Assembly: GCA_902728285.1 (NCBI GenBank) | Contig: CACVBU010001294.1 | Span: 2,052,384 to 2,116,383 of the forward strand | Source of the DNA: Clytia hemisphaerica | Taxonomy: Eukaryota; Cnidaria; Hydrozoa; Leptothecata; Clytiidae | Reading direction: 5' to 3' | Length of the DNA: 64,000 nt | In this document: piece by piece, positions 8,212 through 59,781 of the stretch | How positions within the stretch are numbered: position 1 is the first letter of the stretch | How the letters are laid out: each line of letters opens with the position of its first letter | The notes under the pieces: model-generated | Told to the model about the DNA's origin: nothing | The model's database searches: none | The model's input: the letters and a program-made list of their open reading frames with translations, nothing else | Made by a program: the position numbers and the translations under genes

Positions 8212-8395
8212 CTGGAAAAAGAAAGCTCGAAATTTATGTAAAAACACATGTAAAAACTTAATTGCCCCGCAGTTGCTTTTGTTACTTCACGTAGCGGGCT
8301 TGTTCGCCAGAAAAATATTCATGTCGTTGATGTTTATCCCGATTTTCAGTGGGCCGATTGTTTTGTCTATTTTGTTGTGACTTGTATTGATTTTT

Positions 8396-37875: not shown

Positions 37876-40800
37876 TCAATCCACATGTTCAGCTCTCATT
37901 ATGAGTCTTAGTTTTTCGATCAGAAATTTCTTGTCTTGACCAGCCTATAAGAAAATCACCAAATATCAAAAGAGTAGGGGACCTAATATTTTGAAAAGCA
38001 AAATTTGCTAAAATTTTACCCTAAAGAAAGCCTTTTTTAAATAAACAATTGACAGATGTCACGGAACTCCAGACTTGGCCCCCTACTAACATACGGTAAC
38101 TTAACATTTAGCACTACAAAGGCCACTGTGACAAGCATGTAAGACATTCTAGCATATAGGTCTTTTGCAAATAAACTTCTCAGTTGTTTTCACGGCATTA
38201 GCTCTCTTGAATTAGCCTAATTTTCAAGAAAACTGCGATCGCGCGATCGTTTCTACCCTAAAAAATCATTTTCAGTATTTGTCTATTTAAGTTGATGTAG
38301 AGCATTTAATGCACTTACCAATGCTAATTGCTGTTTCAGTAATTGAATTTTCTTTTCGTTTGATACTTTCCTCATTCGGAAGTAATATGATAACAGTCTA
38401 AAATAAAAGAGAAAACAATCTAGTATCATGGTCAAAATATATTAACAATTTAGTGTATTTTAACGTTTTCAGCATTCAAAGTTTGGGTGAGAATCGCTAT
38501 ATTGCACTTTCACTTTCTTTCATTGAACATTTCGTTTTTGGAGGAGTTCAGTGGCTTTTAGGCTATATTCCAAGTCTTATTGGAGCAAACTTGAGCTTTT
38601 AAATCCTGAGATCCTAAGGTCCTATCGTGAAGTCGGGTAACTTGCATCAGTGGCTAAAATGGCTAAAATGCATAGCCCTCAAATTAATGACCTGGCTGGT
38701 CATTAAAATACAAAGTTAAATCAAAACAAAAATGGTAGAGTAGAGATGCGAGCGGAGCTGCGTAGTAGAAATTTTTCTGCTTTGATTGGTCAGCAGTTTG
38801 AGGGCTATGCATATTAGCCTCCACTAATGCAAGTTTCCCGACGAAGTCTCATGTTAAAACTCAGAGTTAAAAATCTACTTTCCAACTGCAGTTTAAGGCG
38901 CTTAAAAATCATTTGTGGTGTTTAAAATTTTGCAGAGAAATCCCCTTTGTCTCAAATATTTGATTGTAATAACCAGGATTTACTAAAAGACTCAGTCACC
39001 TAAGCTTTCGTCTGATAACAAGCTTATCGAAATGATCCAGAGAGACATAATACTTTTGAAGTTAATTAATAAACCCCTGTGTCACAGAACCGGACGTGTG
39101 ACCCTTTACCTACTGGAAGATTACCCATTTAAAAATCGATGGAGAAAAATTGCACTCCAAAACCATCCCCACTGATCCCTTTTGAGATTTCGGTAGAAAT
39201 TTCAGAAAGTTCCATCGGGGCTGTGAGACAGGGGTGTATTAATGTTAAACGATCTTTTCCCAGTTGCCTTTTTGAACATGTAAAAATCGACTCTTTGGAG
39301 CCAATTAAATTGCTGGGTTTTTTAAGCCACCGATATAAGGATGTGTGGTAAACTTACCCCATAAAGAACAGAATAGCAGCGATGACAGGTAAAGAAGATA
39401 AAGAGTTGACTATTTTTCGGATAGTTGTTGGTGTTTCATTGATGATGTCAGAAACGATATCGTATATTCGTTCTTGACCTCTATGTAATAGTGAAAAAAA
39501 TAGAAGAAAGATTTACATCGGGGTGTTAAGGTCCCTTTTCTTTATGCTATTAAAACTTAATTAGTCTTACTATTTGTCTTTCTAAGAAGGAGGATCCCAA
39601 GCCGGGTCAAACCAAAAACTTTGAAAAATTATATTTGAATAGAATAAGAATAACTCGAGGAAAACCTTCGGATGAATAGCTAAAGGTGAAGGAAGAGGGG
39701 CTTTCTTGTGGCTCCCGAATGAGGTGACAAACTTTAATAAAGAAGCTTTTATTATTTTCTGAGGATTGCGTTACGAAATAATTTCCGAGTTAACATAATA
39801 GATTTTGTGGGAAGGAAGCACTGAGCGAAAAGAAATTTCTTCTGACTGACATCAATTTTAGACAAATTCAAATCGAAATTTTTTACCTGAAAGGACCACA
39901 TATTGTCGATGGTTTTAATCTAGAATGAGAAAAATAAATTCACAAAAATTTGATTCCAAACATAGATTTCTTTAAAGCCCGAAGGGCTTAGATATCGTGT
40001 TTTAAGCTCTTCCAAGAAAAAAAAGTGAATATCACAAAAAATATTGCTGCTATTGTTTTCGAAAACCTACGAAGCTTCTTATTGGTCAAGCGCTGAAATT
40101 CTATTCTAATGTCATGTGACCTAGGTAGGATTTCCTATCTAGCACGACATCTGTCCCTTCGGGCTTTATAGAATTATGATTCAAAATTGGCTGACTGTAT
40201 GAACGTCAGTTGAACGTTGTGTCCGTTGCAATCACGCATCTCGATTATTTGACAGGAAGAAGATTTCTAGTAACGACGGTTGTCGTCTGAAAAATGCACA
40301 AAGATGGCGGAAAAAATTCAGGAAAATAATCAAAAATCACCATCAATAAACGACTTTTGCAGCCCGTCAAAGTGCATCATAAATGAAGAAAACGCACCAA
40401 AAGATACCCTACAATGCAGGAAGTGCCACCGTTTAGTCCATTATCTTTGTACAGAACTGCCACTTTACCAAATCCAGATATGCTTGTCATACAAATCAAG
40501 AAGTTTCCAGTGTCAAAACTGTACCAAAATCGCACCACATGTAATGGAAAGGTATAATTCAAATGAAACATCAAAAATTGAAGGATTCAAAAACGAAATC
40601 AAAGCCTGTGAGAATATAATGAAAAGGCAGGACGAAGAAATAAACCATTTGAAAGCACAGGACGTCGATGTTATGGTCAACGAAATGAAAGAAACTATTG
40701 ACACCAGAATAACCACGCTTGAAAAGAAGATTGAAAACATCATCGAAAAGAAAGAAGAGGAAAGACCACCAATGAGCTACGCTAAAATCACATCCAAACA

Positions 40801-43800
40801 GATCGAGAAAAACATTGGAGATGCAATTCGAAAAGAGAAGCAGGAGGAGCAGCTGATTCGATCGACAGCACGCAACCTAATTTTTCATGGGATAGATGAA
40901 TCGACAGATGAATCTGAAGAAGAAACGAAAATCAAGGACGAAGAATTTATCCATGAGAAAATTATTGGTAAGCGGCTCCATCTGAGGAATATAAAGATTA
41001 CCGAGACGCAGCGGATCGGGAAATTTACGAAAGAAAGAGAAGATAAAGCGAGATACCGACCAATCAAAGTCATATTTACGAACGAAGAGGACAAGAACAC
41101 AGTGTTGCAAGCAATAACAAGTGATACTTTTATGGACCTACCTGGTTATGCATTTAACACATTTATAATTGATATCTACGTGACGTGACCGTTAAACAAT
41201 CATTCAGAACACAAATAGTGACGATAAAATTAGTCGTTTGTTTCTTATAAAAAAAACGTGCATGCTCTTGAAATATTCTTTTAGATTAAAGACTTTGTGA
41301 GCAAAAAAAACATCTATCTCATAAAAAAATTGAGTAATTTGACTAAGAACATTGATGTATGCTTATTAATAGTGGTTCTTATAGATAAACATGCGTTTTT
41401 TCAGCCAACAAAATTTTTTTGCAAAAATATGCTTGCTTATTTTTTTTCTTCGAAAATCGGGTTCCGTCACATTTCGGCCATTACCATTTTGCACCTTTGT
41501 ACCAAAAATCAAAAAATTCCTATGATTCGATCCCGAGAAAAGTTGGTAACAGACGGACGGACGGACGGACGAACACAGGTTAATTTATAGGACCTCCAGG
41601 TAGGTCCAACAAAAGCAAAAGGCTTTCCTTACCGAGTGACAGAGGACTAGACCAAAAATAAAAGACAAAAATAATCAAAGAATGGTGTAAGGAAGCCGAA
41701 AAAATGAATGCTAAAATCAAAGGAGATAACACAAAATGGAAAGTCCGGGGGAGCCCGCGAAAAAAACTCTATTTCAAAAAGTTCATTGTAAAAAGTACGA
41801 GCAGTTTATAGAGGTCCATGTGTCTTCACGGTGGCCTGCATAACTGTAAAGCTTTATTATTATTATAGTAAGTAGTAAGTCTGCTTTTCGATTCACTTTG
41901 GGAGAAACTCAATGAGCAAATAATCTTTCGGTTATTCGAGCTCCCATATATTCGAAATTTTAGATGTTCAAACTTTTATTGTTCGAATTCTTTATATTAA
42001 AGTTTATTAAGGGACAGTTTAGTTGCTTTCAGTTATTCGAAGTAAATATTTCTATCGTCAAACATCGAAAAGCTAGGAGTCTCCGACCTATTCCCCGTGT
42101 ATCCCAGGCTTTATTTACGTTACTGATTGACGCCAGCGTCAAAAAGCTGATAATAGCGAGGCTAAGCAAGTGTTTATTTAGACCGTTCAATGCAATATCA
42201 TAGGCCTGTACATAAGATTTCACTTGCATGGTTTGCTTTGGCAAGTTATGTACAGGCCTACGGTATCGCACTTTACGGTCAAAATAAATCCGCGCTTAAC
42301 CTCGCTAATATGCAGGGAACGAGGTTGGGAAGTCTTTTAAAGAATATGATATCTGTGGTTGAATTTCACTTACGTTTCGTCATCCATCATGATGTAACCA
42401 ATGACAACCAGAGCTAGCATCAACATTAATGACAGTAAACAAAGAAACCATAGCAACATCTTGGACGCTTTGAAAGGACGAGTAGATGGTCTACAATTCC
42501 TTACTACGCTTACCTAAACGAAACAATCACAATTAATAATTATCTTTTCGCCTCTGTTGTTTGGAAGCTTGCACTGAAAACCATGAAGAGACTATTTTTG
42601 TTTTAAAGATAAGCTCGTTCATCCACTTTTTCAGTGGTCAAAGAAAAGTCTTTCATCTTGTTGGTCACCATGACTGGTCGACGAACGACTCTTCGGACAA
42701 CCACACCTTGGTCGTCCTTGACGACAAAAAACAGACTCAACACGATAAATTAGCCCAGATTCTCAATATTTGACTGCTCTTTTTTTCTAAATTCTAAAGG
42801 GCGTAAAAGCCTCTTTTTATACTTTACTGAGACGAATCCGTTTGAGACAGATGAACTGTGAACATTGCTTCATTAAAACGAAGATCTGATGTTTCCATTG
42901 TGGTGCTATGCGCACTGGAAGCAAAAATGAGCAATTTCAATTACAGAGGGATTTAAAAATATATCAAAATATGGATTAAAGAAAACATAACAAAGAAACG
43001 AGGCTTACTGGAATAATGTTTTATACACCCAGTTAATCCGTTCTTACCTTTTTGACATAGAAAGTGATGAACAATTTTAAGACATTGATGAAAGGTAGTA
43101 AAGGACAATAGAATGTTCCAAGCCTGAATTGGTGATGAAGAATAGACAATTATAATTAGCATTAGAATTAGACCAGAATATAGTCTGACAGTCAAATATA
43201 AACGTTATGATCAAGAATAGCATATCCCCCAAGGATTTTGAACAAAAATAGCTAACAAATATATGTGAAATATCTTTAGAGAGAGAAAGCGAAATAATAA
43301 ACTTTTGGCTCAGACTACTCTAACAGAAAACTTCCTTTCGTGAAGACCAAATTTCATAACAGTGTTTGAAAATAATCTACAATATATATGTAAGCCCCCC
43401 TTTAAACTATCCCCTTTATAAATTATCCCCCCTTCCTTCCTATCCCCCTTTTTCATTTTTTCGGAAGGTGCCATCCCCCCTTAAGAAAGGAGGGAAACAA
43501 TTATTGTAGTAAGTAGCTCAGCCGATACCACAAAATTTCCCTTGAATGTACGTTTTGGATGTTATGAACGCTAGATAGATGTTGTTTCAATTTTCTGCGC
43601 ACCGTCTATTGGTTGAACAAGTCACGACTCTTGACATTAATCCACCTGGCACAAATAATCTTAAAACAACGTATATCCATTGGTCTATTTGGTGACAGGA
43701 AAATTATCCCCCGGAATCCCCCTAGGAAATTGCTCCCCCATAGATTTCCAACTGGTAAAATTGGATGGGCACAATTCCCGGGGGCAAACTTTCTAGAGTC

Positions 43801-46800
43801 GATTTGTCCATCGCATCCAAGTAACATTAGCCTGATTGACCCCTAAGGGTTGAAATTTAACCCTTGCGAAAATGGTAATTATTGCACCATTCTACAATAA
43901 GTTTCTTTGCTGTCTTGAAATAATTTTGAAAAACAATTAATTGGAAAATATAAGTACATTTAAATATCTTTCCAATGATGCCAACCTTTTTACTATATGA
44001 CAAACACTTGGGAAGTTACGGTAAAAAATAGATAGATATGAGCCCTCCGAATGCATTCGGGATGGGTCCGAACCACAAATGAGTAGGAATCACGGCGCTG
44101 ACAGACACTGCGACTTGACAGACGCGAGCTGCCAAGCCATGGTGTATACCATGACACTCGAAGGACACTGGGAGAGCGATGCTCACGCGAGGCCAAACCT
44201 TAGGAGTGCCACGGCACGTCACAATGTGTGTCTAATCTACCCACACTCTTATATCAGAGTAATGGTACCCAATTCCCCTAAGTCTGTTCTTACCAGCATA
44301 TTCCTTGACAATATATGAGGTTGAGTACATTCTTGGAGATATCGAAACCAGGGAGATGTTTGCTGCAACATTTCTTGGCAACAATACTGTAAGACGAAGA
44401 AGAGCGAGGTTAACTTTTGATAGATACAGTAAGTTGGTCTAATGTCGACATCCCATATCTATTTCCGACGTCCTCCTTTAAAGATGGGAAAAATAATAGG
44501 TCGGAATCACTGATCGAAAAAATATTTTTTGCTCTGCCTCTATTTAGTTTTTCCAAGTTTTTCTTCGATGTTGGAAGGGGGCGAATCGCTTTCTGCAATA
44601 TCCCAAACCTACTTTCTAATGAATTCTTCGAAGAAAGTGGCCAGTAAAACAGCAATGAAATCGATGACTGCTAATTTGTAAAATGCTTGTCCGATGAAAT
44701 TCTCCCAGCATTTCTCTTGTCGGACTTCTCTCTAGAGACAAAATTGAAACAAAGTTATTTGAAATGTAGGGTAAATCTAGATTCTCTTAAACAGAAACTT
44801 AACATTGTTTGGCCGGCTCTTGACCCAAAAGACCGATTTTTTCGCCTTGCCACGGTCCAAATTATTGACCAGAAGTAGATGTCGACAGTTAACGCATGCC
44901 TTGTTTTGACGCCATAGTAACAAATATTTTCCAAACAGAAAAAATAAATAAATGCAGCTCGTAAAACACAAACATGGCTTTATTTTTAACTATTCGTCAA
45001 TTACTTTTTAGAATGTTCGTCCCATGAACCGAAGGGAGATTGACATCTCTTTGAGTATGGTTCGACTCGTAAAACGTAATAAAATCGCGGGATGGTCTAA
45101 TAGTCTAGAATAACTGCTTACTCGCCGCCTTTCTTCTACAATATCAAGCGGAGACAGGATAAGGAGAAATAAAAAACAGGGGAAAAAACATACGTTTATT
45201 GTTGATAGTCTGACAATAACAGTGACAACATAAACAACCAGACTTGCTAATTTCAATGTGATCGTCCTGGAAATTTAGAAAGAGTACAAATAAAATTAAT
45301 CCGGCCAGAACGTCCAAACAACGTCCATTTAACATCCTTAACCCCATAATCAACGAAGCGCCAGCTCGCGGGAAGAACCACCTCACGTGGAACTATAATT
45401 GCCAAAAAATAAGAGTTTTGATCTTACGTACTGTTAAGGATATTTGTTACCCAGGTAACAAACTTTTCCGTCTGATGTACATGTTTTTTTATAAGCATTG
45501 CGCGTATAAACATATCTAGGCTCATATATGGCAAAAATTTAAGCTTAGGATATAAGCATCCCTCAAAGCATTTTTCAGCTTTGTAAATCTCTCGAACTAA
45601 GTATTTCCGAGCCAGCTTTTGGATTTTTGTATGCTTATAAAAAAAACATGTAGTTAACCGACAAATCTATGAGTGCCTCGTTATGCAAACGTCATGATTA
45701 TTACTTCTCTCGTTTGACTGAAATTCAATCCCACAATCCTTTTCGTCTTAATTCAAAAGTCGTGAAAGTTATTACTTCTTCTTTGTGACTGAGTGTAATT
45801 TGCGTGTAAGCGTAATAAACGCAAAGGGTGTATTGAATTTCGATCAAACAGAAAAATCAATGTCTATTTTTAGATTCGCCACGGTATGCTATTGAACAGA
45901 AAAAGTCTTTGCATGTTACTTACCGTAATAAATTAATTGTTAATTCGTATTTAGGGTTGGAATAATTTTCTATAGAAGCGATTAAACGAAATCCGGAAGG
46001 GACGATCAGGTTGATTACGGACATGGTTATAGCCGGAAGGAGTCCTTTGATACCATGTTCTACGTGGTTTGATTCGAATGATTCCTGGAAAAATCCAATT
46101 TATATAATTAAGTTAAGACTTAAAGGCCGGTCTCCACTTGCGCGCGCTGCGATCGCAATTTTTGGCTTCAATCCATTCTGCTTGGAAAAAAGATTACGTC
46201 ATAGAAATGTAGCGCGCGCTCGAAAGAAAAGTTGAACACATTTTAACTTTTTTCAACAGTTACGTCAAATCGCACCAATGGAGTTGCTTCATTTTTCTTT
46301 TGACCAATAGCATGGAAGCTTTACTCGAAAAAGTGCGATCGAAACGCGCGCAAATGGAGACCGGCCTTAAGTTTGTTCCAAATAATCTGGGTGGTAGATT
46401 ACACATTTCGATCCACTGTTCTTCGCTGATTTTTTATATATATTTTGGAGTGCGAAGGAGTGAGATTATGTGTCCACTGATACCAATATCGTATTGGATT
46501 GTTTTAAGAATGTCTCCATTGTGACGTCAGAAAGATAAAGATGGCAGATTACCACATAAATAGCATTATTCAATCGGGTTTAAAAATCTTTTCTAAACAA
46601 TCAGATTTTGCACAACCCTGTAATATTTGAGACCTTTATTGAACCTTTGAGCGATTTCAAAACTCAAATCAGGGAAAAAATCAATCCCGCCTTTTACAGA
46701 TATGGAGTTTTAATAAACTGGGTAAACTCTTACCTCGACGGACATATCGGAAACATAATAGATGAGAAATGCAGAACCAAACAACAAAGCCATTGTAATC

Positions 46801-49800
46801 ATGTTCATCAACACACGTAGAAAAATCACCAGACAAAAACTAAAACAATCCGTCTTGAACTTCCCACGCTTTGATCCTAAAGTTTCCTATAAAAGAAAAA
46901 ATATATTTGAAAATATAGCAAAGAGCAGAAGAAGAGTTTGAAGATTCAGGCTAAACTATCAGTTTTATAGCATTTTGGAAAATATAAAAACCCAGTCTGA
47001 ATTTCTTTCTTTGTTATTTTTTCTTATTTCAAAAATTTAATTTGATACTAGGGTGGGGGTTAGTTTCTTCATAAAATCGTACGCCATGTGATTTCAGTCT
47101 CTTGGGGTCTGGTACAGAACAGATATCTTACCAACATATCTTGAGCAAAACTTTTCATTTTGATGCGTGCCGTTTCCTTGTTACATATCCCATAATCCCA
47201 TGCACAAAAAACTTTAGATGAGAAGGGCGCCACGTTGTCACCTCCACTTATGATGAAATTCTGATTATACGAGCTCGCCATACTAAATGGAAAAATGTGT
47301 TAATCATTGACAGCTAGGAGAAGACAACGTCAAAAAACGTTCATAACGTCCATATATCGTTAGATGAACATTCATATAAATCTGTCTGTTCGGCATGGCC
47401 ATGAGCAATGTTTAGGGGTTCTGTGGTTCTAGTCTAAGACGAGTTTCATCAGAAGCAAAAGTGGCGTTTTTTCTGAGAGGGGTAGCTGTTTTCTTGTATA
47501 GCTCGTCACTCCCGCCGAGTTTTTCTACACTGTTGACTCTCTCTAATTCGACCTTTAAGGGACCAAAATGTTCTTTGAATTAGAGAAAAATTCAAATTAT
47601 GGAGAGTATTGTATACGATATTCCAGATAAAGGGATCAATATGTTGATTAAAAGAGGGTACACTACAGCCATAAACGGCTTCAACCTCCAGCTCCAAATT
47701 TCCCAGCGCGATTACATTTGTTGTTAGAGTAATATTCGACGGGAAAGAAATGGTTTACCTTTTAACTAACACAATGATACAGATGAGAAAATATCCACCA
47801 CCCACGAGTAGATACGCATACCGCATGTTGTAACGACCGTTGATTGCCTTGTCCGTATATGTACCGTAATACAGTTCCGTATGATTAAAGTAACCCTTTG
47901 AGAAAAAAGAAAAGATGAATTGTACTTTCACTAAATAGTTTCTGTTTGAAAAGTCGATGCTTATAAAGTGGGTTACTGGCTAAGGCAGTTACACCAGTAG
48001 TCACTTGATCTATCAACAAATTTCAAAAAAAGGAGTTACAATGAGTATCGGCCAGACAAAACAGGGCTAAACTCTAAATTGTTCGCTAAAATACACGATT
48101 CTGTTTTAGGGTTTATTTATGGAGGCCGGCTCGTCCAGCTAGGTTGGATGGCTCAAGTAGATAGCCTTATAATGTTACATTGAAACTATTATTGACGAAT
48201 CAAATCGCTCAAAAAAAGATCAAGTGACATCAGAAAGAGATACCATATAGCAAGTAAGCCTGTATATGAAAGGGCCATAATTGACACTCTTTAGTCCGAT
48301 TTCAAGAGGAATTGTATTTTCATCGAATAAGAGAGCATATCGAATGATAGAGCGTCGAATTAGAGATAGTCTGTACAAAAGCCCGATATCTACGGTTAAT
48401 TTCAAAATTCTTTGAAATTCTTTGAAATTTTATTTTTGATTTTCTTGATTTATTTGACTAATCTGTTATTTGTTCTACTTTTTAGACTAGATAATGCTCA
48501 AAGAAATGAGCGAAAGATCTCGTAAATGTATGGTGATTCTCCCTGTCTGAAAAACATTCTTTGCCTTAGAATTTTACTACAAAACGATAAACGTGAGATA
48601 CACTCTGGTACAGAGTAGACAGAGTAGATAAGAGAGTTTCGACTTTAAAAAGAAAGGTAAGAAATATTTAACCAACCTCTCCAGTCAGAAGGTCAATACC
48701 AGTGAAATCACTACTGGGAAGAATTCTGGCACTCTGTTCGTAAATCATTTGAGGTACAAACAAGAAGCATAGCGTCAACAAGGAAACAATCAAATTGATA
48801 TACAGCAACCATCGCAAGAAAGTGAAATATGATAACACTCCTGTACCAAACAAACCTGAAGAAAGAAAATTATAAATTCAAAATAAATTGGCAAGCCTAA
48901 ATCAGGCATTTTTTAAACCTGATATCAGATCGTTATCATTTTCTTCCGCGCACGGTAAACCTCTAAAGGCGCTTGAAAATTAACCATCTGAGTAAGAAAA
49001 TGGGCAATCTATAACAAGAATCTTGTTACGTGCCGTGATGCCAAAAATTTATCTTTTTTTTTGATACAGCACCCTATTTTCTAACACAATAACACAACTT
49101 TGTTATCATTCCCAGTCCTTTGAAACGAGCGTGGTCCTCAATAATTCGAGATGGCTTATTCGTCAGACCTTTGCTTTTACATATCCCTTCAGAGGATTCG
49201 CGTGGTGTCCATAAAACAATCACGATCTAATCTCAGGTTAGCATTTTGTTAATAGGCTATGGTTCGAGCAATCTGATTTATCAAATAAAAGTGACACGTG
49301 GCCGAAAGAATTTGTACAATCGGTGTTCGGTAATTTACATCCTCCCCGCCCGGCATCATCATAGCGCCAGTACTCTAAAGCCTTTTGTCACAGAAATTGA
49401 AGTCGTTAAGTCTAGTCTAGTTTAGTTTATAACCTTGTTCCCTGAGTATTATCGGTTTTTGATGTTTATTTAATAGCGCCAGATAATATTCTCTGGAGTC
49501 CATCAGTAACCTAACTAAAGCCTTGGATACACGGGGACGGGGATATCTTAACAATTATTGAATTTTTGGGCTTCGATTCAAATAATTTAATAACCTTCGA
49601 TTTCCTTCATGTGTCCTTTCCATATGGTAAACTGTGTAAATGATTCTTTGACATTGTTCTTGAATTTCGTGTAACGCTGAAAATAATGAAGGGAAAATAT
49701 CCAGTTACAGAAAATTTCGCGTTTTTCGCGATTTTGATCCTTTTTCGCTAAAGTTTCTGCCAGGTAAGAAATTAAACCTAAAAAACGCGAAAAATAAACT

Positions 49801-52800
49801 TTCCTACTCAGTTTTGCACTGTTTGCTAAATTTTATGCGTGTTTTATAAGTTTTTGTTACCAAAAAAGGTAAATTTTATATGAATTCGCGAAAGTTCTAT
49901 CTGTGAAATTTCGGCTAAAACCATAATTTGCGACTTTTTGACTTCGCAAAACTTTCTGCCCGCAAAACTTTCTGCCCTTAAAGTAACAGCAATGTGAAAA
50001 TGGCGAAAGATTTCAGGCAAGAATTCTGTAGTTTACGTAGACTAAGCCATATAGTTTAAGACAAGGTTCAAGTAAGAGGGACAAACCCAAGAATGGAAGC
50101 TCTTCCAGGCTCTTTTGCTCTTGCAAATCTTTAAGGACGATTAAATTAAAGCTGTCTATTGATTTGTCTAGCATGCCAGAAGTCTAATTCAGATATAGCA
50201 GAAAATAAGCAGAATAAGACCATGTTCACACGTTACTGTCCCGTCTAGCTGCGGTATGATTTTTGTTACGGATTGAGTGTGTTCATATTGGTTTTGGAAC
50301 GTTTCGGAGCAAGAAAACAGAGCAGTCCATTCCGATGAAAAAAGTGGAGCGAAACCGTTTTGATCTTTTTTGCTTTGTAACGTCTTATGACGCTTCGAAT
50401 TTTGATGTTTCGGAACAGTTTCGTTTCGGAACGGAACCGTAACGCCTGAGCATGGTCCAATGCTAATAATGAAGGGAGAAATTGTATTTTATACAGCACA
50501 GCTGATACTGTCCATTGTTAACCGGTTACTTTTTCGAAGCGGGCTACACGACTTTACAATAATGACCGGTTTTTTTCGGGCTGTACTGAAAATATTGCCC
50601 TCGGTCAACGCAACAACCTCGCAAGCTCGGTCGTTACTTGACCTCGGGCAATATTTCTCAGTACAGCCCTCACTAACCGGTCATTATTGTATTAGTAAAA
50701 ATCATTGCATTATCATAAAACATTCATATGTCTCTGTATTACACGGATTATAAACAATAACCAGTCCATCTCTATGGATTTGTTCGCATACAGCTCTTTA
50801 GTTGCTACTAATCATGAGTTAACTTTTTCGATAATTTACTGTACAAATGAGAAATCAAACACAAGTACAGTACATACCATAGCTCGTTCAAGCTTGAAAT
50901 TTTCCCATCCACTCAGCGGTCGTTCTTCGTTTTTACCTTTCACTCTCTGTCTGTTTAATTAAACGAAGTATTTCATATCATTTATAGGAAGATTATCACG
51001 TGAAGAAACGCCGAAAAAGAAAGAATTAAGTGTTTTTTGACAGCAAGGGGAGAGAAATAGTCGTAAACTTACTTGCTCGGAAATATAAGAAAGACTTGCC
51101 TGACGGATCGTTTATGTTGTAGTGTTGTTGTCATGTATCGAATATTTTCAGGGTCCACTGGTTCAACCATGAGATCGTCAGAAAGAAAAACATCCTCTAC
51201 TTCCAAAGTGTTTTGACCTGGAAAGAACAAAAAATAGTACTTTAATCCGATTAACTTTCGCGAGATTAAATTTCGCGATGTCGCGAAATTTCCAAAATCG
51301 CATTTCCGGCGGAGAAACCAGTCCAAAGTTTCCATTTGTGGCAAAAATGGCTATTTTCAGCTGTTTTCAGGCTTATTCACGAAATTAAATCCAGAAAATT
51401 TCGCGATTTTTTTCGCTCGCATCTCGCGAAATTTAATCCGATTGAAGTAAATGATTAAAAGTGGCTGTGGGTCACGGTCGGGGTTCGAGATCCTCTCCAC
51501 GAGACAAATCTGGTGAAAAAGTGACCCTTAGTGGGGTGACTTTTGAATATTTTCCACACTTATAATTAATCGACTCAGTTCAAGGTGCCTACCTGAAGCT
51601 ATCTAGTGTTTGTTGTTGCAACAAAACAAGAGAAATGAGTGCTTTAAGAGCAAATCTTCAAGAATCACTTGAACAAATGATAAACAGTTGAAAGTTACTT
51701 ATTCAAATATTTCTATATTTCTACCCAATTCTCAGTTCCTGTCATAAGGCAACCCTTGTAAAACACTCTCCTTTTGAGTTTGAAAAATCAAGGGACCGTA
51801 GAACAGTGGTACGACCCCGGGGGGTGCGGGTACTAGGGCAAAATGGGTTACAGGGATGAGCCACTGGTCAGGGTACCTTTTTTAACCTCCACGAGTCCCA
51901 GGTAGGGTCACAAAAAACACCAAAATAGAAAAATCAGTCCCTCGTAGGGTGACTTTTTTAGAAAATTTGGGGAAAAAGTAGAAAATTTGAGAACATTTTG
52001 GAATTTTAGTCCCATTCAGGGTCACTTTAATCGTAGGGTCCATTTTTCGAACCTCAGCGGAGCACCCCCGTCGGTCGGCAAGGGTTGTACCCCCCCCCCC
52101 CCGGGGACCAATCCGTACTACCACTATTGAGATTCAACTGTAAACATAAAATTATACAAACCTGAGGAAGGTCCGGGTACATTTCCATCAGTTGCGTCAT
52201 AATTTACATCTTCTAAAGGTGTTCTGACTTTGATTCTATGCAATGTTCCTAGAAAAATGGTTGAAAATTGTACAAATGTATATTGAAAAGTATGAATGAG
52301 AGAATGAATTGGTCATCAGCTAGAATTAATACGATCAACCCTCTGCCTTACCCGGTCGTCGGCTAAAAGTTAAAGCAAAATTATTAGGACGAATCTAAGA
52401 TGAAGTATTCAAAGAAATGACCTCCCTTTGAATATTGAATTGATCTAGCACTGATCTTGAAAATCACCCATTTCTATCGGTCTATTGCCTTATGGGGAAT
52501 TAAGATTTGGCGGGTTTGGCGGGTTTGGAGATTAAGTTCAAACTAAATTTAATTTTTTCCACCCCCCGTCAAATCAGAGTCCACCAAATTTGATCTTTTC
52601 CCTACCATCCGCCAAATTAAACTTTTAATTATTGTATTCATTCCCTTAAACCAGATTTTTCTTATTTAATAGTGTTTTTTTGCCCAGTTCATCCGCCAAA
52701 TTAAATTCACATCAAAATTTCTATCAGTAAGGAACTCTACAGAGCTGAAGTTACCTCATAAGGCATTCGGCTATGGCGTCGTTGGTTCAAACCCGGCCGG

Positions 52801-55800
52801 ATGATACTAAAAACTTCGAACTTAGTTCAAAAATAGTACTTGATGCCTCTCTGCTTGATAATCATCAATTGATCGATAGCGATCGTAGTGCAGTGGTAGA
52901 GCATTCGGCTACGGTGCGCAAGGTTGTGGGTTCAACCCCCAGCCAGGTCATACCGAAAATTCCCTACTTGATGTTCAGCAATTAAGAGAAGAATCAAGGG
53001 TAAGTGGAGAAATCCAGGGAGAAAGAGTGGCACCCTCTCCTACCTTCTGGAGGATAGCTATCGAAAGAGGAGCCTTCGGGTCGCATCCGACTGCGGTCGC
53101 AGACTTAGATACTAGCAATTGAGAGATGGATCAAGGGTTATGGAGAAACTAAGTCGGAAGAGTGGAAGTCTTACTAACCTGCTCTAGCAAGGGTATGTAT
53201 TTTTCTCAGCTCAGTGGAAGGTAGTGATTTCTTGAGGCCAGCCTCGAAAAGTTCTTCCTCTGTTTGTCCATCATCTTCATCTTCAATTTGTCTGTTGAGG
53301 TAATCTTCCTCTAAGTCTTCAGGTTGATATTGAGCGAAACTGTCGTATTCAATGCCTTCAAATGATGGGTTATCTATGAAAGAAATGATTACATATTGCT
53401 AAAAGATTTGGTACTTGAAAGAGCAGAACGATCCATTTAAGTTTGTATTCCATGGACTTTGAAGGCTATTCTTCAAAATATGACATAACCTTTGGATTTC
53501 ATAAAAGCTTCAAAAACACCCCTCTGTATCTTTTTCATACACCAGTGTGGAAATGATGTAAAGTCCACGCCAAATTGTTATTTGTTAAAACTGAGGTCTA
53601 CACCGAAAAAAGTTCTGTTTGCGGAACAGCGAAATTTGCAGGAGGGGGTTTTGGGGGAGCTGCAAGCCCCCCCTTCAAACGGGTCCAGGGCTTAGCTCTG
53701 GTGGGGGGGGGGGGGGTTCAGGGGGCAAAGCTCCCCGAAAGCCCTGGGATATTTGATTTTCTCACCCCTAAAAGTTGCTCAAATAAGCTTTATATTCTAT
53801 TTACACTCTAGGTCGTTATATGACGGTTAAGGTCGAGCAACCCTCCTTACGCCAATACCCCAAAGTTTTCCTTTACCAGTATGAATGACATTATGAAAAT
53901 ACATTGGAAAGAAATTTGATCATATTCTAGAACTCTTATTAAAACGATAATTTTAATTTTAAAGGTAGTTATCAAAAAAATTATCTGTTCTTATCAAGGC
54001 ATGTTTAAGTCGCGTTGAATAATAAAAAAAATAATAAACATATACAGAGGTAAGACAATTACAAATTAGAATCATTTTAAGTTGTGAGCAGGTTGGAAAA
54101 TGTTAATTTTCCTTTAACAACACTGATTTTATCTAAGACTACATATAGCAGGGTATCATAAAAGGTATCATATTCCTGATAAAAGCATTGGCTGTAGTAA
54201 TAATTCAGAGAGATAGATGCAGGGTCTACAGCTTGGTTGAAATGGAAAAATAGGCGAATAAATAAAACATGGGATGGAAAATCTTCTAAAAATGATGGGA
54301 AAGGGGAGGAGGAGGGTTTAAGGGTTTTATGGAAGGAAGGAGAACAAACCTGGTACAGATTGCTTTTTCAGAGGTGCTCTTTCTGATTCAGAAGAATCTG
54401 AAATACTTGTATATCGTCTACTTGACATTTTCTGTCAAAACATTGTCAAACAATCAGCTTGAACATTCTTTACTGTTTGAATTCAACTAAACGTTATGAT
54501 ATTCAGTACATGTCAAACATGAATTTCGTGTGAAGTAAAACCATCCTTTTTAAATGAAAGCTTTTTCGATTAAGATATCATAACAACATGGTGTCTTAGC
54601 TTTTTTTATGTACACATGACTCCTTTTTTGTAAATTTCAGATTATATGTTCACATAAACTAATCTTGCTGAGCACCATGGGCTATTATGAAAATAAGTGA
54701 ATTTATATCAAAGTTTGGAAAAGTATCACAAGGCAGCTGAAAAATATCTTTTTATATCGATATTGAAAAAATGAAGACTTGAAAAATGAATTTTCAACTT
54801 CGAACATTTAATTCTATCATATCTTGATAAAAGAAACTAAAAAGAGAAAAACTGTAACAAAAATAAAACTCCCTCTATTTCAACATCTCAAAATGATCAA
54901 GTCTAAAACAAGAATCCATTTAAAACAACTTTGAAATGTCAATTTACTAAATAGTGATCAGACATATTTTTGCATTGTAAATCACTCACCACTGACAATC
55001 AAAAAACCTCATCTAAACACTTTTATCGTGGCAATATATCAATTTCCTAAATGACATATGTAATTACTCAGGAAGTATTCTGAAACAGATTTATTTACTC
55101 ATTAACTTTGATAATTAAGTAAACTTGTGTGTAAAGAAATATCATATAAACAGCACTATTGCGACTTGTTATTTAATGCCGGATAAGTTAAGAAAATTTT
55201 GTAGTCTATCAGCATGAAATATTAAGAAAAAGGAAAATGAAAAGTTAAAAATCTATGACTTATAATAAAATGATAATTTGCCAATCTTACTGGTTGAAAT
55301 GACATACATAATTTGCTGATAGTTAGAATTGCTAGCACAACTTGAACAATCAAGAGCCTTTTAATTTTAATCATAAACTTTACCTCGGCTTAAATCCATA
55401 TCATAACTTGCATGGTCTGTTTTGCCAGGCCTTGACATTTCAACCTGTTACAAAAACCTCTGATAAACTTAATACATAAAAGATTTTTCAGACAAGTTGA
55501 TGCTTTCTGAATTTTCAGATCAAATATAAACTTTCCTTAAAGATTTTTAAATTTGTTGATCACACAATGTGAAAATCTGAATGAATGGTAAGGCCATGTT
55601 GTAAATCAAATTTCTATTGAGAAAATCAGTTTCTTAGATTTTAGCATTCCATTATTTTTCTTTTTAAAACTTGAATGTTCATTTAGAACTGAATACTTGT
55701 TACTGCACAACATGAGAAGCTCATTCAATATTCAGAAAAAATCTTCACAAAGGATAAACTGGATATAAATTATGTCTCAATTAGAATCTGCAGTGGAGAA

Positions 55801-58800
55801 AAAAAAGCTATAAATTTTGATAGAATTCAAATTAGATACTGTATGCTTTTTTCGTTTAAGTTTAAAAGATAATGATTAGTGGACCCAAATATTATCAAAT
55901 TGAAAAAAGTCAAAAACATTTGGAAAGTAAGGATAAGGAATTATTTCTTTCCACAGTGATGATGTCCTAAGATCAAAGAAACACAATAAGCATGGTTGTT
56001 GGCGTGGTTTTTAGTTCTTCATTTTTATCTTTGTCAATTTTTTTTCTATTTTACAACAAAATGGAAAGGCCGCAATGAGGGTTTAATCACCAGCTTGTTA
56101 TTTTTTAAAAAATGTCAGAAACCTAAAAAGCCAAGTCCCTCATAAAAAAACTTGATGTGAATCCATACTGAACTGATCTTAAAAACTAAGGTATATAGTT
56201 TAAATATCTTGTAAATATATTAAAATGCAGGTTTGACTTTTTCACTCTGTTGGCCATTGAAATCTTTTTGCAAAATTTCCACCCACAATCCAAATATTTT
56301 AAGTTGACAAAGATCAATATCAAAATTGATGCTGTCTGACCAGTGGACCAGAAACGAAAATATTTTTTAGGTATGCTAGAAGAGAATTTTTTTTTCAACC
56401 TTCAATTCTTATGTTAAAAAAGGTACCAAGATTTACCTTTGGATGCAGCCAGCCATAGTTAAAACTTTAAAAGTGATACAACTTGCTACCATAAATTAGA
56501 CTAATGTTGACACCCCTTCTAATCCAGTAGCCCTTCCTTAGGGATGAGAAAGATTGAAAACAAAAAGGTGGGTGGAATCTCTGGCTGTTGCAACTAAGGA
56601 ATCTTCCTATCTTCTTTTATTCATAATATTGTATGAATGAATTGCGCTAAATCTGTATTGTGGTTGTTTACAAAACCACGGTATGTCCCGCAAATATTTA
56701 AACATGTGCACCATACTAAAGACTTTCTTTTTTTTTTAATTATGTTAATTATCACCATTGGCATTGCCTACAAGTCTTTCTTCACTTTGCCCACATCAAG
56801 TTTTTAAGAGGTCAACACATTCCAATGAATTTAGTTTTGCAAATAGTCCTTTAGAAGATGTCATTACGATTTTTATTTGATGTTTACTCCACCTACTTCA
56901 TTTCCATTTTCACCCATGTCCTCAAACCGTGCACAAAATGGTATCGTAAGTTGGTCTAATGTCAACATCTGTCTTCTATTTTCGACACCCTTCTTTGGAG
57001 AATAGAAAAGTCAGAGTTGCTAATTGAAACTAATCAGCTAATTGTCTTTGCTTAACGTTCAAAGAAGGAACCAGGGTGTCAAAATTAGAAAGCGGATGTT
57101 GACATTAAACCAACTTACAGTATAGCTGCGGAAAATCATTTTCAATGGAAGTTGTTTATGTTTTTACAATGTGTAGTAACATGTGTAGAAACATGTGACT
57201 GGTTGATATCTGGTCTGTATTTTCACTTACTGTTAAATCTCTTTGACAACAAATTTGTTTTCATAACTCCACCAAGTCTATCAATAATACCTTTTCGTTC
57301 CTTTCAGAGTGCACAGACACTCGCGTGTGTTCCACTACGGATTTTTTTCATATCTTTGATTTAAAAGCCTACTCAGTGCGAAAGAGAAATCATGTATTTT
57401 TAAATATGCCGTTCTTTAACTCAAATCAAAATGACTTTGGAGGTTCGGTGAAATGGTGGCCGAGTTACTGTCCCATGTTTTATCAGATAGTCCCTAGAGC
57501 AGTCAACGGTTATTGACAGAAAATCCTTTGTTTGATTGTCAATGATGACAGTGCCATTATTAATTTTGTTAGATATGACAAATTGATGTTTGTGAGTGCA
57601 CTATAGTTTTAATTCCCATTGAAGAATCATATTCTGGTTTTCGTAGATGGTGTTTCAGCTTTAGTAGAGCTCGCCTGCCTGTAGATGACTGATGTTGTTT
57701 TTTCTGAAAGCTTGATTTCCTTGCGTGACTAACTGTCAACTAAGCTTTAGTACACTGAACAGAATAAAAGAAAATATAAAACATATAAAAAGAAACTGAC
57801 CTTCAGCAGAGCCTCTCTTCCTACCAAAAAAGCTCATCCTCAATCTTCTTACACATCTACAAATTTCAAATCTATTTGAAAATGTGTTACTCAGCCATAG
57901 TAAAAGTTAAGTTAACTTTATCTGCTGATTTTAATAATAAAAAGCTGATAAACTCCTACGATAGTACATGAACCTCATAATAAAATCAACTTTTTTACCA
58001 CACTCCTTTCTTTTCATAGAATTACAGAGATATTAAAATAAACATAAATCTAAAGAAAAGGTCAGATAAAAATTATAAAGGAATTGGTAATCCACAAAAG
58101 ATAAAAAGAATTAAAACTCATAATAAAATGGTTAGTCAATATTGATAAAAACAAAAAATCAATCTCAGCTAAACAGTGTACCCTATCTTCCCAAGATGTT
58201 TGACAAATTTGGAGTGTTTTTGTTTTAGCGCGTAATATTGATATGACCTCGTTTTGAAACGAATTTTCTTAGAATTTTAACTGTGTTGTGTAGCAATCTC
58301 TTCTGTATGGCGCGAAAGATTTCAAGTCTAAACCGATCAGATTGATTTGATTGTGGTTAAGTTAAAGGAACTTTTAGATTGTTTTCGGTACATGTTTTTT
58401 ATAAGCATAACTCTTATAAGTATATGAAGGCTCAGTTTTGCAGAATTCCTACGCATAACATAAGCATATAAATGTCAGCCTGGAATCCCGGGGGGGGGGC
58501 ACTCGATCTGAAAACGACCATACGTTCGGCCCAAAATTTGGCTTCTAAAATCGGACCCTTACAGTGCAGTGAATTTCCATGAAAAATCATACCCTAACAG
58601 TGCACTTTTTCAAAATTTCTCGCCCGTAAGGGCGAAAATTTTTGCAATTTTCCAAGAAAATGTGGAAATTTTCCTCCAAAATTGACCAATTTAGTGCCAA
58701 TTTTACAAAAAAATTGGCCTTTTATCACAATTTCCTACCCTTACAGTGCAGTTCAGTGCAGTTTTGTAATTTCCTACCCTTACAGTGCACTAGCTGAACT

Positions 58801-59717
58801 ATGAAAAACCTACCCTTAAGGGCCGAACGTCTGGCAGGTCATTTACCTTGACGAGTGCCCCCCCCCCCGGGCCTGGAATATTTTTCAAGTTGTCAAAAAA
58901 AGACATTCCACGGCTAGCTACATTCCAATGCTCCCAAAATCTGAACAAATTTTTACAAAATTTCTGAAATTTAACTAAAAACTTGCCTCGGGTGAATCAT
59001 AAGCATAAGCTATGCCTGGATGCTTTAAGAACTTAAGCCTACACGAGCCTGACCAAGAGGGGCATACACTTGCTTATAAAAAAACATGTAGCGTAGGTAA
59101 GTGACTGACTTTTCCAGAAAATTTCAGTCATTTTTTCCGGTATAATCCGCCGCATGAGAGAAGAAAAATGTTTTTTGTCTAAATGAAAACCCTGTGTTTA
59201 CTTGATTGGAAAGTGCTTTACTTTCATTGCCGTAGGTAGAGTAGGGTCTGTTGTCATTGTCTTTTCTGGTTTGAGATTTTCCAAACCAACCGCTGCGATG
59301 GAGTGCTGTTGGAGTTTGGCGAGAAATCGGAGGCGATACAAGAGAAAATGGCCGTCAGAATTGTCAGTGAATTAAAATTGATGAGTAAGCAAACGATATC
59401 ACTCTTATTTAAAAACAAAACCTTTTAGAATAACACTTTTCATTTTGACCATCGTGATATGAAATTAGAAAAGTGATCACTTTTTTACAGAGAGGTTGGG
59501 AATTAAACTTAGTGTTAGTGTCCATTTATCTTCCTTTTTCCTCGTTCCATATACCCGGGAAATAAGAGATTGTCTCTGATATTGTATAAAAAGTTTACAA
59601 TAGATATTTAGATGATAAAGACCTACCTAATTCACCAGATGTTTCCAGGTCTTCTCTTTCACCAAATCGGTTGGTTTGACAATCAGAAGATGACGGCGGT
59701 GAATATTTACTGCTCAT
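37876..59717 (-). CDS. TMC: Transmembrane channel-like (TMC) protein, complete
   Basis: Exons: 59717-59627, 59305-59222, 53373-53179, 52248-52162, 51217-51073, 50950-50878, 49676-49595, 48855-48677, 47895-47759, 47282-47132, 46886-46734, 46084-45924, 45266-45194, 44731-44613, 44386-44294, 43123-43048, 42513-42374, 39919-39887, 39480-39358, 38397-38319, 37944-37876. They total 2,343 nt, 780 codons plus stop, with every phase matching. The acidic cytoplasmic N-terminus is followed by FGTGVLSYFTFLRWLLYIN (first membrane helix), YAYLLVGGGYF, SFAQDMLETLGSKRG, the family signature CWENFIGQAFYKLAVIDF, DISKNVLNLIYCQG, LGTFYCPLLPFINVLKLF and RNCRPSTRPFKAS. About nine or ten hydrophobic helices are spread over exons 48855-39358. 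TMC proteins are ion-channel-type membrane proteins, including mechanotransduction channels; the subfamily is not resolved. The C-terminus is short and basic (FLIEKLRLIMRAEHVD). Confidence 0.95.
38629..38848. mobile_element. MITE in TMC intron (AAGTCGGGTAACTTGCAT ends)
   Basis: The left arm (GAAGTCGGGTAACTTGCATC, AATGCATAGCCCTCAAA) is mirrored by the right arm (TTTGAGGGCTATGCAT, ATGCAAGTTTCCCGACGAAG). About 220 bp, non-coding. Confidence 0.8.
39971..40170. mobile_element. MITE with AAAGCCCGAAGGG ends
   Basis: TTTAAAGCCCGAAGGGCTTA at the left and CCCTTCGGGCTTTATA at the right form the TIR. It is related by its GCCCGAAGGGCT core to the element at 60384-61069. It lies in the TMC intron between exons 42374 and 39919. 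Confidence 0.7.
40304..41188 (+). CDS. LINE ORF1 protein, 3' end displaced by an insertion
   Basis: The longest open frame in the window. The ATG at 40304 (MAEKIQENNQKSP) is preferred over the upstream TTG. The N-terminal zinc finger is PHD/C2H2-like: CRKCHRLVHYLC, then FQCQNC. A coiled coil follows (about residues 105-175, with repeated KKIENIIEKKEEE-type heptads), then an RRM-like core (ARNLIFHGIDESTDE, RPIKVIFTNEED). This order is that of LINE ORF1 nucleic-acid chaperones, which coat the element RNA. The last 25 or so residues (DLPGYAFNTFIIDIYVT) come from an inserted repeat that also exists at 10.9-11.2 kb, so the protein is chimeric and the native C-terminus is separated. Confidence 0.75.
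   Translation: MAEKIQENNQKSPSINDFCSPSKCIINEENAPKDTLQCRKCHRLVHYLCTELPLYQIQICLSYKSRSFQCQNCTKIAPHVMERYNSNETSKIEGFKNEIKACENIMKRQDEEINHLKAQDVDVMVNEMKETIDTRITTLEKKIENIIEKKEEERPPMSYAKITSKQIEKNIGDAIRKEKQEEQLIRSTARNLIFHGIDESTDESEEETKIKDEEFIHEKIIGKRLHLRNIKITETQRIGKFTKEREDKARYRPIKVIFTNEEDKNTVLQAITSDTFMDLPGYAFNTFIIDIYVT
41110..41610 (+). repeat. Repeat inserted in ORF1; copy at 10880-11190
   Basis: It begins near GTGATACTTTTATGGACC and ends GACCTCCAGGTAGGTCCA; the TGGACCTACCTGG block is repeated inverted at the far end, as in a DNA transposon TIR. It carries a (GACG)n run at about 41552-41572. The half from 41110 to 41415 is shared with 10.9-11.2 kb in opposite orientation. Confidence 0.7.
42158..42306. 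mobile_element. Palindromic MITE in TMC intron
   Basis: The left arm GCGAGGCTAAGC ... ATAGGCCTGTACATAA pairs with the right arm TTATGTACAGGCCTACGG ... GCTTAACCTCGC. It ends about 70 nt from the donor of the exon that stops at 42374. Confidence 0.75.
43400..43800. other. C-rich intronic stretch
   Basis: Repeated TATCCCCC/ATCCCCC words at 43395-43495 and again at 43700-43790 (GGAATCCCCCTAGGAAATTG, CCCGGGGGC). It may be a decayed member of the G-run element class, but ends could not be paired. It lies within a TMC intron; no exon was seen. Confidence 0.35.
44033..44280 (-). mobile_element. Truncated SINE copy (family of 60531-60922)
   Basis: The reverse complement matches the body of the SINE at about 60660-60920: GGGGAATTGGGTACCAT, then GTGTATACCATGACACTCG-type blocks and the TATCTATC end. 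The tRNA-like head is missing. It ends 13 nt inside the intron from the TMC donor at 44293. Confidence 0.78.
44427..44510. mobile_element. Fragment of TAAGTTGGTCTAATGT MITE
   Basis: GTAAGTTGGTCTAATGTCGA then CATCCCATATCTATTTCCGA matches the left half of the complete element at 56947-57117. It lies in the short intron between TMC exons ending 44613 and starting 44386. Confidence 0.6.
45479..45652. mobile_element. MITE, TACATGTTTTTTTATAAGCA ends
   Basis: The left TACATGTTTTTTTATAAGCA and right TGCTTATAAAAAAAACATGTA are complementary over about 20 nt. The same family, interrupted, lies at 58388-59091, and TTTTTATAAGCATCTA words also occur at 8450 and 8590. Confidence 0.78.
46121..46370. mobile_element. 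MITE with AAGGCCGGTCTCCA ends
   Basis: The left TAAAGGCCGGTCTCCACTTG, with GCGCGCG nearby, is mirrored by the right CGCGCGCAAATGG, AGACCGGCCTTAA. A divergent relative is at 21205-21480. Intronic in TMC. Confidence 0.82.
47524..47613. mobile_element. Fragment of TTGACACTCTCT-family MITE
   Basis: ACTGTTGACTCTCTCTAATT and GAATTAGAGAAAAATTC belong to the family seen complete at 27353-27801. A second fragment is at 48274-48376 (AATTGACACTCTTTAG ... GAATTAGAGATAGTC). Confidence 0.5.
49701..49993. repeat. TTCGCG-rich repeat in TMC intron
   Basis: Many TTTCGCG/CGCGAAA words and loosely complementary ends (AGTTACAGAAAATTTCGCG / ACTTTCTGCCCTTAAAGTAAC). It is probably related to 51239-51448. The boundaries are approximate. 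Confidence 0.45.
50218..50457. mobile_element. MITE with GACCATGTTCACACGTTAC ends
   Basis: The left GACCATGTTCACACGTTAC pairs with the right GTAACGCCTGAGCATGGTC. The interior carries repeated TTCGGAAC words. The ORF crossing 50266-50499 is not a gene. Confidence 0.75.
50515..50689. mobile_element. MITE with AATGACCGGTTA ends (short, inverted copy)
   Basis: This is the reverse complement of the 16044-16485 element with the middle deleted. It runs from TTGTTAACCGGTTACTTTTT to CTAACCGGTCATTATTG and retains the GGCTGTACTGAAAATATTGC palindrome. Confidence 0.78.
51239..51448. mobile_element. MITE with CTTTAATCCGATTAA ends and TCGCGA motifs
   Basis: The left ACTTTAATCCGATTAACTTT and right AAATTTAATCCGATTGAAGT are complementary. 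Inside are repeated ATTTCGCGA blocks. It starts 22 nt from the TMC exon acceptor at 51217. Confidence 0.78.
51815..52106. mobile_element. G/C-run-ended element with AGGGTCAC repeats
   Basis: The left CCCCGGGGGGTGCGGGTACT and right run of about 14 C followed by GGGG are partly complementary. The interior has repeated TAGGGTCAC/TAGGGTGAC units on one strand. The left end is like 18351 and 23816. About 290 bp in a TMC intron. No clear target duplication. Confidence 0.6.
52755..53160 (+). mobile_element. tRNA-derived SINE pair
   Basis: Two heads are present: a partial one at 52757 (GCATTCGGCTATGG, GGTTCAAACCC) and a fuller one at 52872 (TAGTGCAGTGGTAGAGCATT = A box; GGTTCAACCCC = B box). Each is followed by a related body with CTTGATG and ATCAATTGA/GCAATTAAGAG. 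This is SINE rather than a tRNA gene because the acceptor and anticodon arms do not fold cleanly and the body continues for more than 200 bp. Confidence 0.68.
53635..53765. repeat. G-rich imperfect palindrome
   Basis: GGGGGAGCTGCAAGCCCCCC is roughly mirrored by GGGGGCAAAGCTCCCC, with a run of about 14 G between them (53702-53716). The type is uncertain; it could form unusual structure. Confidence 0.45.
54350..54428 (-). other. TMC alternative first exon 1d
   Basis: ATG at 54428 encodes MSSRRYTSISDSSESERAPL and KKQSVP, with donor CCAG|GTTTGT in phase 1. It is Ser-rich like exon 1a, and is the nearest start to the common exon at 53373. Confidence 0.62.
55384..55438 (-). other. TMC alternative first exon 1c
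   Basis: ATG at 55438 encodes MSRPGKTDHASYDMDLSR, with donor CGAG|GTAAAG in phase 1. An upstream stop in phase 1 excludes use as an internal exon. Confidence 0.58.
56947..57117. mobile_element. MITE with TAAGTTGGTCTAATGTCAAC ends
   Basis: The left TAAGTTGGTCTAATGTCAAC and right GTTGACATTAAACCAACTTA are complementary over about 22 nt. 171 bp. A half copy lies at 44427-44510 and a remnant near 56500. Confidence 0.82.
57512..57642 (+). repeat. Dispersed repeat, direct copy of 20686-20822
   Basis: It shares GACAGAAAATC, GATTGTCAATGATGACAGTG and CCCATTGAAGAATCATATTC in the same order. It lies in the intron between TMC first exons 1b and 1c. Confidence 0.75.
57801..57837 (-). other. TMC alternative first exon 1b
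   Basis: ATG at 57837 encodes MSFFGRKRGSAE, with donor G|GTCAGT in phase 1. Read as an internal exon in phase 1 it would meet a stop, so it works only as a first exon. Confidence 0.55.
58388..59091. mobile_element. MITE of the TACATGTTTTTTATAAGCA family, interrupted
   Basis: The left GTACATGTTTTTTATAAGCA and right TGCTTATAAAAAAACATGTA match the intact 174-bp element at 45479-45652. Removing 58487-58871 plus one target duplication leaves about 310 bp. Confidence 0.75.
58487..58871. mobile_element. G-run-ended element with 8-bp target duplication
   Basis: It starts CCCGGGGGGGGGGCACTCG and ends with its complement CGAGTG, a C run and GGG. CCTGGAAT directly flanks it on both sides (58479-58486 and 58872-58879). 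The interior has repeated CCCTTACAGTGCA units. An 8-bp duplication is typical of hAT elements. 385 bp, non-autonomous. Confidence 0.88.
59222..59305 (-). other. TMC 84-nt cassette exon
   Basis: The acceptor CTCCAACAG precedes it and the donor GAAA|GTAAAG follows. Its length is a multiple of three and both ends are phase 1, so it can be skipped without a frameshift. It encodes LHRSGWFGKSQTRKDNDN and PYSTYGNE. The WFGKS start resembles the FFGRK of first exon 1b. Confidence 0.6.
59627..59717 (-). other. TMC alternative first exon 1a
   Basis: ATG at 59717 encodes MSSKYSPPSSSDCQTNRF and on to SGEL, then donor G|GTAGGT in phase 1. It is Ser/Pro-rich and polar, as expected for a cytoplasmic N-terminus. 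It can join the cassette exon 59305-59222 or exon 53373 directly, in frame. Confidence 0.65.
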
Positions 59718-59781
59718 TTGTCTTTGCTGGTCAAGCAAGAAACGCAAAAGGGGTTAAAAACGAAAGTAAGTCGAATGAACG

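Follow-up and report, generated by a model that had tools for sequence, protein, structure and literature searches.

The closest described counterpart of the locus analyzed here is the mouse Tmc1 gene, in which the exon carrying the start codon varies between transcripts so that the products, Tmc1ex1 and Tmc1ex2, differ only at the extreme N-terminus; these two variants arise through inclusion or skipping of exon 2 and, as far as the available text of PMC7554986 goes, only the ex1 form is translated in cells. In cultured cells, mouse TMC1 is mostly intracellular; a lipid tag at the N-terminus partly aids its delivery to the surface, as described in the available part of PMC12250529. For C. elegans TMC-1, residues 1-73 are without density and CALM-1 contacts helices H1-H3, H1 comprising residues 75-87; the word 'isoform' is absent from the available text of that report (PMC9605866). 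A different route to transcript diversity is known from the C. elegans sma-9 gene where, in an animal that adds spliced leaders, alternative trans-splicing yields a short transcript with a tissue-specific function (PMC2904332, available text). The TMC gene described below resembles mouse Tmc1 in its predicted outcome but differs in having up to four candidate ATG exons, spread over 5.4 kb, with no good acceptor near the ATGs. The original prediction held that such an arrangement had not been described for an invertebrate TMC; indeed, none with alternative first exons was found among the matches listed from the open-licence PMC literature, although the mouse gene is a closer precedent than was then supposed.

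The window, a 64,000-nucleotide stretch (C884:2052384-2116383) of a 417.4 Mb genome in 951 contigs, encodes on its minus strand a protein that had been called a TMC channel, and this assignment is borne out by the Pfam TMC domain (PF07810, E=8.2e-39), which scores 133 bits where the cut-off is 25 and spans residues 479-584. In phmmer comparisons with solved channels, the channel body matches C. elegans TMC-1 (7usw; E=1.3e-44, 156 bits, in two blocks) and C. elegans TMC-2 (8tkp; E=5.3e-38, 134 bits); these two and a mouse-TMC1-type peptide are the only structure-protein matches. The Pfam and structure-protein comparisons were made with a 703-aa version of the protein that lacks the 33-nt micro-exon. 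CWE..GQ and CGPF are motifs of the TMC family, and both are present, CWENFIGQ in exon 12 and CGPF in the micro-exon; C. elegans TMC-1 has its CGPF just where the version lacking the micro-exon shows a gap in the alignment. A crude hydropathy scan of the protein indicates several separate hydrophobic blocks. Splice sites were scored with matrices based on the present gene and its paralogs on contig C340 (33 donors, 40 acceptors); these matrices are rough because some paralog exon ends were taken from a loose spliced alignment. The body of the gene consists of the following exons:

53179..53373, minus strand, common exon 2; opens in phase 1 (codon G|AT), has no ATG of its own, acidic
51096..51217, minus strand, exon 3; junction with exon 4 ambiguous
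50878..50946, minus strand, exon 4
49595..49676, minus strand, exon 5; paralog match
48677..48855, minus strand, exon 6
47759..47895, minus strand, exon 7
47132..47282, minus strand, exon 8
46734..46886, minus strand, exon 9
45924..46084, minus strand, exon 10
45194..45266, minus strand, exon 11
44613..44731, minus strand, exon 12; the Pfam TMC domain begins here (CWENFIGQ)
44294..44386, minus strand, exon 13
43048..43123, minus strand, exon 14; TMC domain
42374..42513, minus strand, exon 15
39887..39919, minus strand, 33-nt micro-exon; LKPSTICGPFR with the CGPF motif, acceptor 13.4, donor 7.0
39358..39480, minus strand, exon 16
38319..38397, minus strand, exon 17
37876..37944, minus strand, exon 18; C-terminus and TGA stop

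The junction of exons 3 and 4 can be placed either at 51096/50946 (GT-AG) or at 51100/50950 (GC-AG), with identical protein. Exons 2-18 join without any stop codon, and the complete protein would have 714, 696, 702 or 710 residues with candidate first exon A, B, C or D, respectively.

Ten TMC-domain matches are listed genome-wide, two at the present locus, six on C340 and two on C310. Other TMC genes, along with partial copies, occupy the minus strand at C340:426314-484612 and on C310 around 52 kb, and those on C340 apparently form a tandem array. The copies on the two contigs are roughly 30-65% alike to the present gene per matched exon, and one C340 paralog scores 151 bits against TMC-1, about equal to the present gene. 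Upstream of the TMC gene, on the same strand, lies an exportin-like gene (PF08389, E=2.2e-8) whose last exon, read by eye, has its end at about 65.5 kb in window coordinates. If this reading is right, the TMC gene must start somewhere in the interval from about 65.5 to 53.4 kb. Just 3' of the TMC gene, also on the same strand, an ankyrin-repeat exon of another gene occupies 34138-34485 (minus). A 304-aa ORF at 40274-41185 (plus), antisense to the TMC gene and located in one of its introns, has a sub-threshold PHD-finger match and is perhaps derived from a mobile element. Further away in the window are fragmented reverse-transcriptase-like ORFs at 14434-15693 (plus), with a sub-threshold RVT_1 match of the piece 14884-15693, and exon-like ORF pieces at 1472-8318 (minus), of which 6384-6743 weakly matches a pyridoxal-dependent decarboxylase.

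The phase-1 opening of exon 2 (53373-53179) had been noted before and is confirmed. In its frame there is no ATG between the acceptor and the upstream stop and, given this lack of a start codon and the phase-1 opening, at least one upstream ATG exon is obligatory. The candidates for this role are:

59627..59717, minus strand, candidate first exon A, MSSKYSPPSSSDCQTNRFGEREDLETSGEL; 91 nt, phase-1 donor 8.3 (58th percentile), hydrophobic fraction 0.17
57801..57837, minus strand, candidate first exon B, MSFFGRKRGSAE; 37 nt, phase-1 donor 9.5 (79th percentile), hydrophobic fraction 0.18
55384..55438, minus strand, candidate first exon C, MSRPGKTDHASYDMDLSR; 55 nt, phase-1 donor 5.3 (12th percentile), hydrophobic fraction 0.18
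54350..54428, minus strand, candidate first exon D, MSSRRYTSISDSSESERAPLKKQSVP; 79 nt, phase-1 donor 7.4 (42nd percentile), hydrophobic fraction 0.16

As originally described, the ATGs at 59717, 57837, 55438 and 54428 (minus strand) are open to GT donors after 59627, 57801, 55384 and 54350, all in phase 1. Each reading ends in G, so that the junction codon with exon 2 is GAT (Asp) in 4 of 4. The N-terminal exon of a C340 TMC paralog appears to open likewise in phase 1 at G|AT, the proteins having no significant alignment there; none of the six readings listed in the 15.4 kb before that exon starts with Met-Ser, which speaks against alternative first exons. The nearest in-frame stop lies 39 (A), 72 (B), 12 (C) and 9 (D) nt 5' of the ATG. 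Overall, the sequence slightly favours a single TMC gene with several alternative coding first exons, each spliced in phase 1 to the common exon 2.

The splice sites point in the same direction for some of the exons more clearly than for others. The donors had been called good without distinction, but that of C is weak, ranking only at the 12th percentile of the 33 donors. The claim that these exons meet a stop if read as internal ones applies to all four rather than to three of the four; it holds for phase-1 readings from every listed AG that resembles an acceptor (score -6 or better) and lies no more than 60 nt 5' of the ATG. AGs within the exons can remain open: those at 54397 and 54382 in D exit in phase 1, whereas those at 57820 in B and 55388 in C give the wrong phase. 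Within 80 nt 5' of the four ATGs, there is no acceptor above 2.5 and none that is good. Over 300 nt before the ATG, the best score is -0.4 for A and does not exceed 2.4 for D; B and C have moderate acceptors, scoring 6.0 at 212 nt and 5.2 at 138 nt, respectively, so that an intron in the 5'UTR is possible in these two cases. The lack of good acceptors nearby favours first-exon status for all four and, with it, separate starts, the case being clearest for A and D. Matches to TATA and CCAAT are uninformative.

The same sites bear on a quite unlikely alternative, in which spliced-leader trans-splicing would produce the alternative 5' ends. One or a few pre-mRNAs would be cut at acceptor-like sites just before internal ATGs, the leader would supply the cap, and the choice of the trans-splice site rather than of a promoter would set the N-terminus. 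The 14.5 kb contig C900 is mitochondrial (TGA read as Trp, one tRNA found), with the order cox2-atp8-atp6-cox3-nad2-nad5-nad6-nad3-nad4L-nad1-nad4-cob-cox1, where cox1 is truncated by the contig end and all names except cox1 were assigned by reading the translations. We take this to be the linear mitochondrial order of hydrozoans, a group in which leader addition occurs. In the available text of the respective reports, spliced leaders are added in Hydractinia (PMC11067881) and, in Hydra, to at least a third of the genes (PMC7986045), and the sma-9 case provides a precedent in C. elegans (PMC2904332). AGs are located 9 and 4 nt before the ATG of A, 6 nt before that of C and 3 nt before that of D. 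The upstream ATGs counted within 150 nt of A, B, C and D number 1, 4, 1 and 5, respectively, a point against separate first exons; cutting at the site before D would drop all five of that exon. However, the best acceptors within 12 nt of the ATGs are poor (A -0.4, B -9.9, C -4.4, and D 2.3, the weak site at 3 nt), whereas 38 of the 40 training acceptors score 2.0 or more in a leave-one-out test, and the scores of A-D are matched before 15, 43, 27 and 8%, respectively, of 3,820 control ATGs, so that acceptors directly before the ATGs, convincing by eye, failed this comparison. Compared with sma-9, the present locus is a different gene with poor acceptors, and leader use is only a candidate here. 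The bolder version, in which a spliced-leader site on a single pre-mRNA picks the N-terminal tail among four start exons and thereby diversifies a mechanosensory channel, is to be regarded as improbable.

For separate first exons, the main question is whether B, C and D could be chance ORFs with donor-like ends in a long first intron, exon A alone being real. Readings from an ATG to a donor are common: listed at a length of at least 31 nt and a donor of 5.2 or better, those on the minus strand of 53374-59900 number 7, 4 and 2 in phases 1, 0 and 2, respectively, and those on the plus strand 5, 2 and 1. Controls yield 189 phase-1 readings in 534,946 bases, or 2.31 per 6.5 kb, so that the 7 observed exceed an expectation of about 2.3-2.6; at least 7 phase-1 readings occur in 21 of 786 control windows, and at least three donors of 7.3 in 44 of the 786. 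The count of ORFs with donors, taken alone, is a weak signal, a modest excess barely beyond chance. A reading in the wrong phase, MSFFDNLKN.., starts at 58906 and ends at a donor of 9.5, which also speaks for fortuitous exon-like ORFs.

Codon usage is similarly unhelpful to some of the candidates. The codon score, for which 2,468 codons mainly of membrane protein served as the training set, is 0.3 for A, -2.8 for B, -2.1 for C and -2.9 for D, with B and C looking non-coding. Added to the donor score, it does not single out the exons: of 231 control candidates, 22 do at least as well as A, 47 as B, 123 as C and 95 as D. By synonymous codon use, which is independent of composition, A, B, C and D fall at the 83rd, 6th, 43rd and 67th percentile of 465 control readings. 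Codon scores weakly support A, support D in part, and do not support B and C. In a first pass based on ORF plus donor and on donor plus codon score, B-D came close to noise; the composition test given below moved the balance away from chance.

The DNA surrounding the exons adds to the case for A alone. CpG depletion marks the body of a transcription unit, and that extending from about 53.5 to 58 kb fits a body that starts near A and has B-D inside it. The ratio of observed to expected CpG is near 1 at A and 0.46-0.66 around B, and drops to 0.32-0.33 at 54-57 kb, a value found in only the lowest 2% of 249 windows. C and D lie in this CpG-depleted DNA and B at its edge, and the sequence around C and D is unlike that of promoters. 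The stretch 53500-58000 as a whole is among the most CpG-depleted DNA nearby (0.32-0.49, TpG/CpA up to 1.27), and a second CpG-low stretch (0.34) is found at 68-70 kb.

What argues against A alone is the joint enrichment for hydrophilic, Met-Ser, phase-1 readings, the first two of these properties having been chosen after the sequences had been seen and before testing. A hydrophilic tail is an expected property of the cytoplasmic TMC N-terminus. The hydrophobic fraction of A-D is 0.16-0.18, whereas the median of 896 control pairs is 0.42, with 2.5% of them at or below 0.18. At the main setting, there are 4 hydrophilic readings in phase 1, none in phases 0 and 2 and none on the other strand; by donor, controls yield 25 in 522,146 bases times three phases, an expectation of 0.10 against the 4 observed (P(>=4) of 4.5e-6, or P(>=3) of 1.7e-4 with one set aside as the obligate first exon). 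When the limits on donor, length and hydropathy were varied in 30 settings, the Poisson probability of reaching at least the observed number ranged from 3e-7 to 1.4e-3, and from 3e-5 to 1.1e-2 with the obligate exon set aside. At a limit of 0.20, 3 or more hydrophilic readings occur in none of the 786 control windows and 2 or more in 6; among 1500 order-2 simulations of the region, none gave 3 or more and one gave two. Loosening the donor limit to 3.0 brings phase 1 to 5 or 6 hydrophilic readings and the other phases to 0 to 2, the rise in phase 1 being due in part to a second weak donor of exon A at 59636. Met-Ser starts are found in 4 of the 7 regional phase-1 readings, which are exactly A-D, compared with 15 of 189 in controls; no control window has four Met-Ser readings, and 3 of 786 have three. 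Because the controls contain real exons, such as those of the exportin-like gene, they are conservative. These observations support the conclusion that chance would rarely produce such a set of four in-phase ATG exons, and A as the only real first exon appears unlikely. Individually, exon A is in all probability real, D is probably so, and for C, as for B, the odds are even.

The original prediction also included an 84-nt cassette downstream of A, and two segments can be considered in this respect:

59222..59305, minus strand, candidate in-phase 84-nt cassette, ALHRSGWFGKSQTRKDNDNRPYSTYGNE; acceptor -3.1, donor 3.8, codon score -5.9, hydrophobic fraction 0.18
54350-54397, minus strand, candidate 48-nt cassette, the 3' part of D, DSSESERAPLKKQSVP; phase 1 to 1, acceptor 0.3, donor 7.4

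The segment 59305-59222 is open and in phase 1 at both ends, as had been stated; its splice sites are poor, with the acceptor at the 5th and the donor at the 6th percentile, and open phase-1-to-1 segments of this splice quality are as frequent as expected (7 found, 7.4 expected). Conceivably, the 84-nt segment and the portion of D that follows 54397 are internal cassettes used after A and not first exons: both keep the frame, the 54397 site likewise yields the GAT junction codon, and hydrophilic cassettes of any length are in excess, with three found (two of them parts of D) against 0.29 expected per 6.5 kb; with at least 27 residues, one is found and 0.05 expected per 6.5 kb. However, the acceptors (-3.1 and 0.3) are weak and the codon score of the 84-nt segment is -5.9, and this reading of the two segments is highly improbable.

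Origin of the putative first exons by duplication was considered and rejected, the local DNA similarity being non-significant (best pair C-D, P=0.05), and tblastn of A-D against the window and the C340 and C310 stretches gave no non-self match better than E=0.08. In DNA searches of the same genome, with the best 40 candidates scored each, no listed row other than the self match overlaps A-D or the cassette (46 rows for A-D and the cassette, 56 rows for B-D), and one scan of viral contigs found no relative. Repeats are present nearby: a 390-bp high-copy repeat at 58483-58875, with G/C runs at its ends, has dozens of copies of 95-98% identity across contigs, another dispersed repeat occupies 57185-57510, and none is listed between 53850 and about 56940.

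Under the preferred reading, that of several coding first exons on one gene, each transcript would begin 5' of its own ATG, from a separate transcription start, and the donor of each short first exon would join the acceptor at 53373. The products would be identical throughout the channel body, with variation confined to the initial 12 to 30 residues, and the first exons might be used in different cells. The predicted tails are hydrophilic, all start with Met-Ser, and carry charges of -3 (A), +2 (B), 0 (C) and +2 (D); they would precede the acidic exon 2. By analogy, they map to the density-free N-terminal region of C. elegans TMC-1, before the CALM-1-binding helices (PMC9605866, available text). 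Since the tails would, by this analogy, lie outside the CALM-1 contact, we infer that a role in trafficking or anchoring is more likely than one in gating.

The delivery of TMC proteins to the membrane and the role of their disordered N-termini are an open question in the field. According to the available part of PMC10463417, a meeting has featured work on TMC-1/2 in the stinging cells of Clytia, so the proposal could be tested in a laboratory hydrozoan. If it is true, a single channel body fitted with up to four tails would constitute a ready-made natural experiment.
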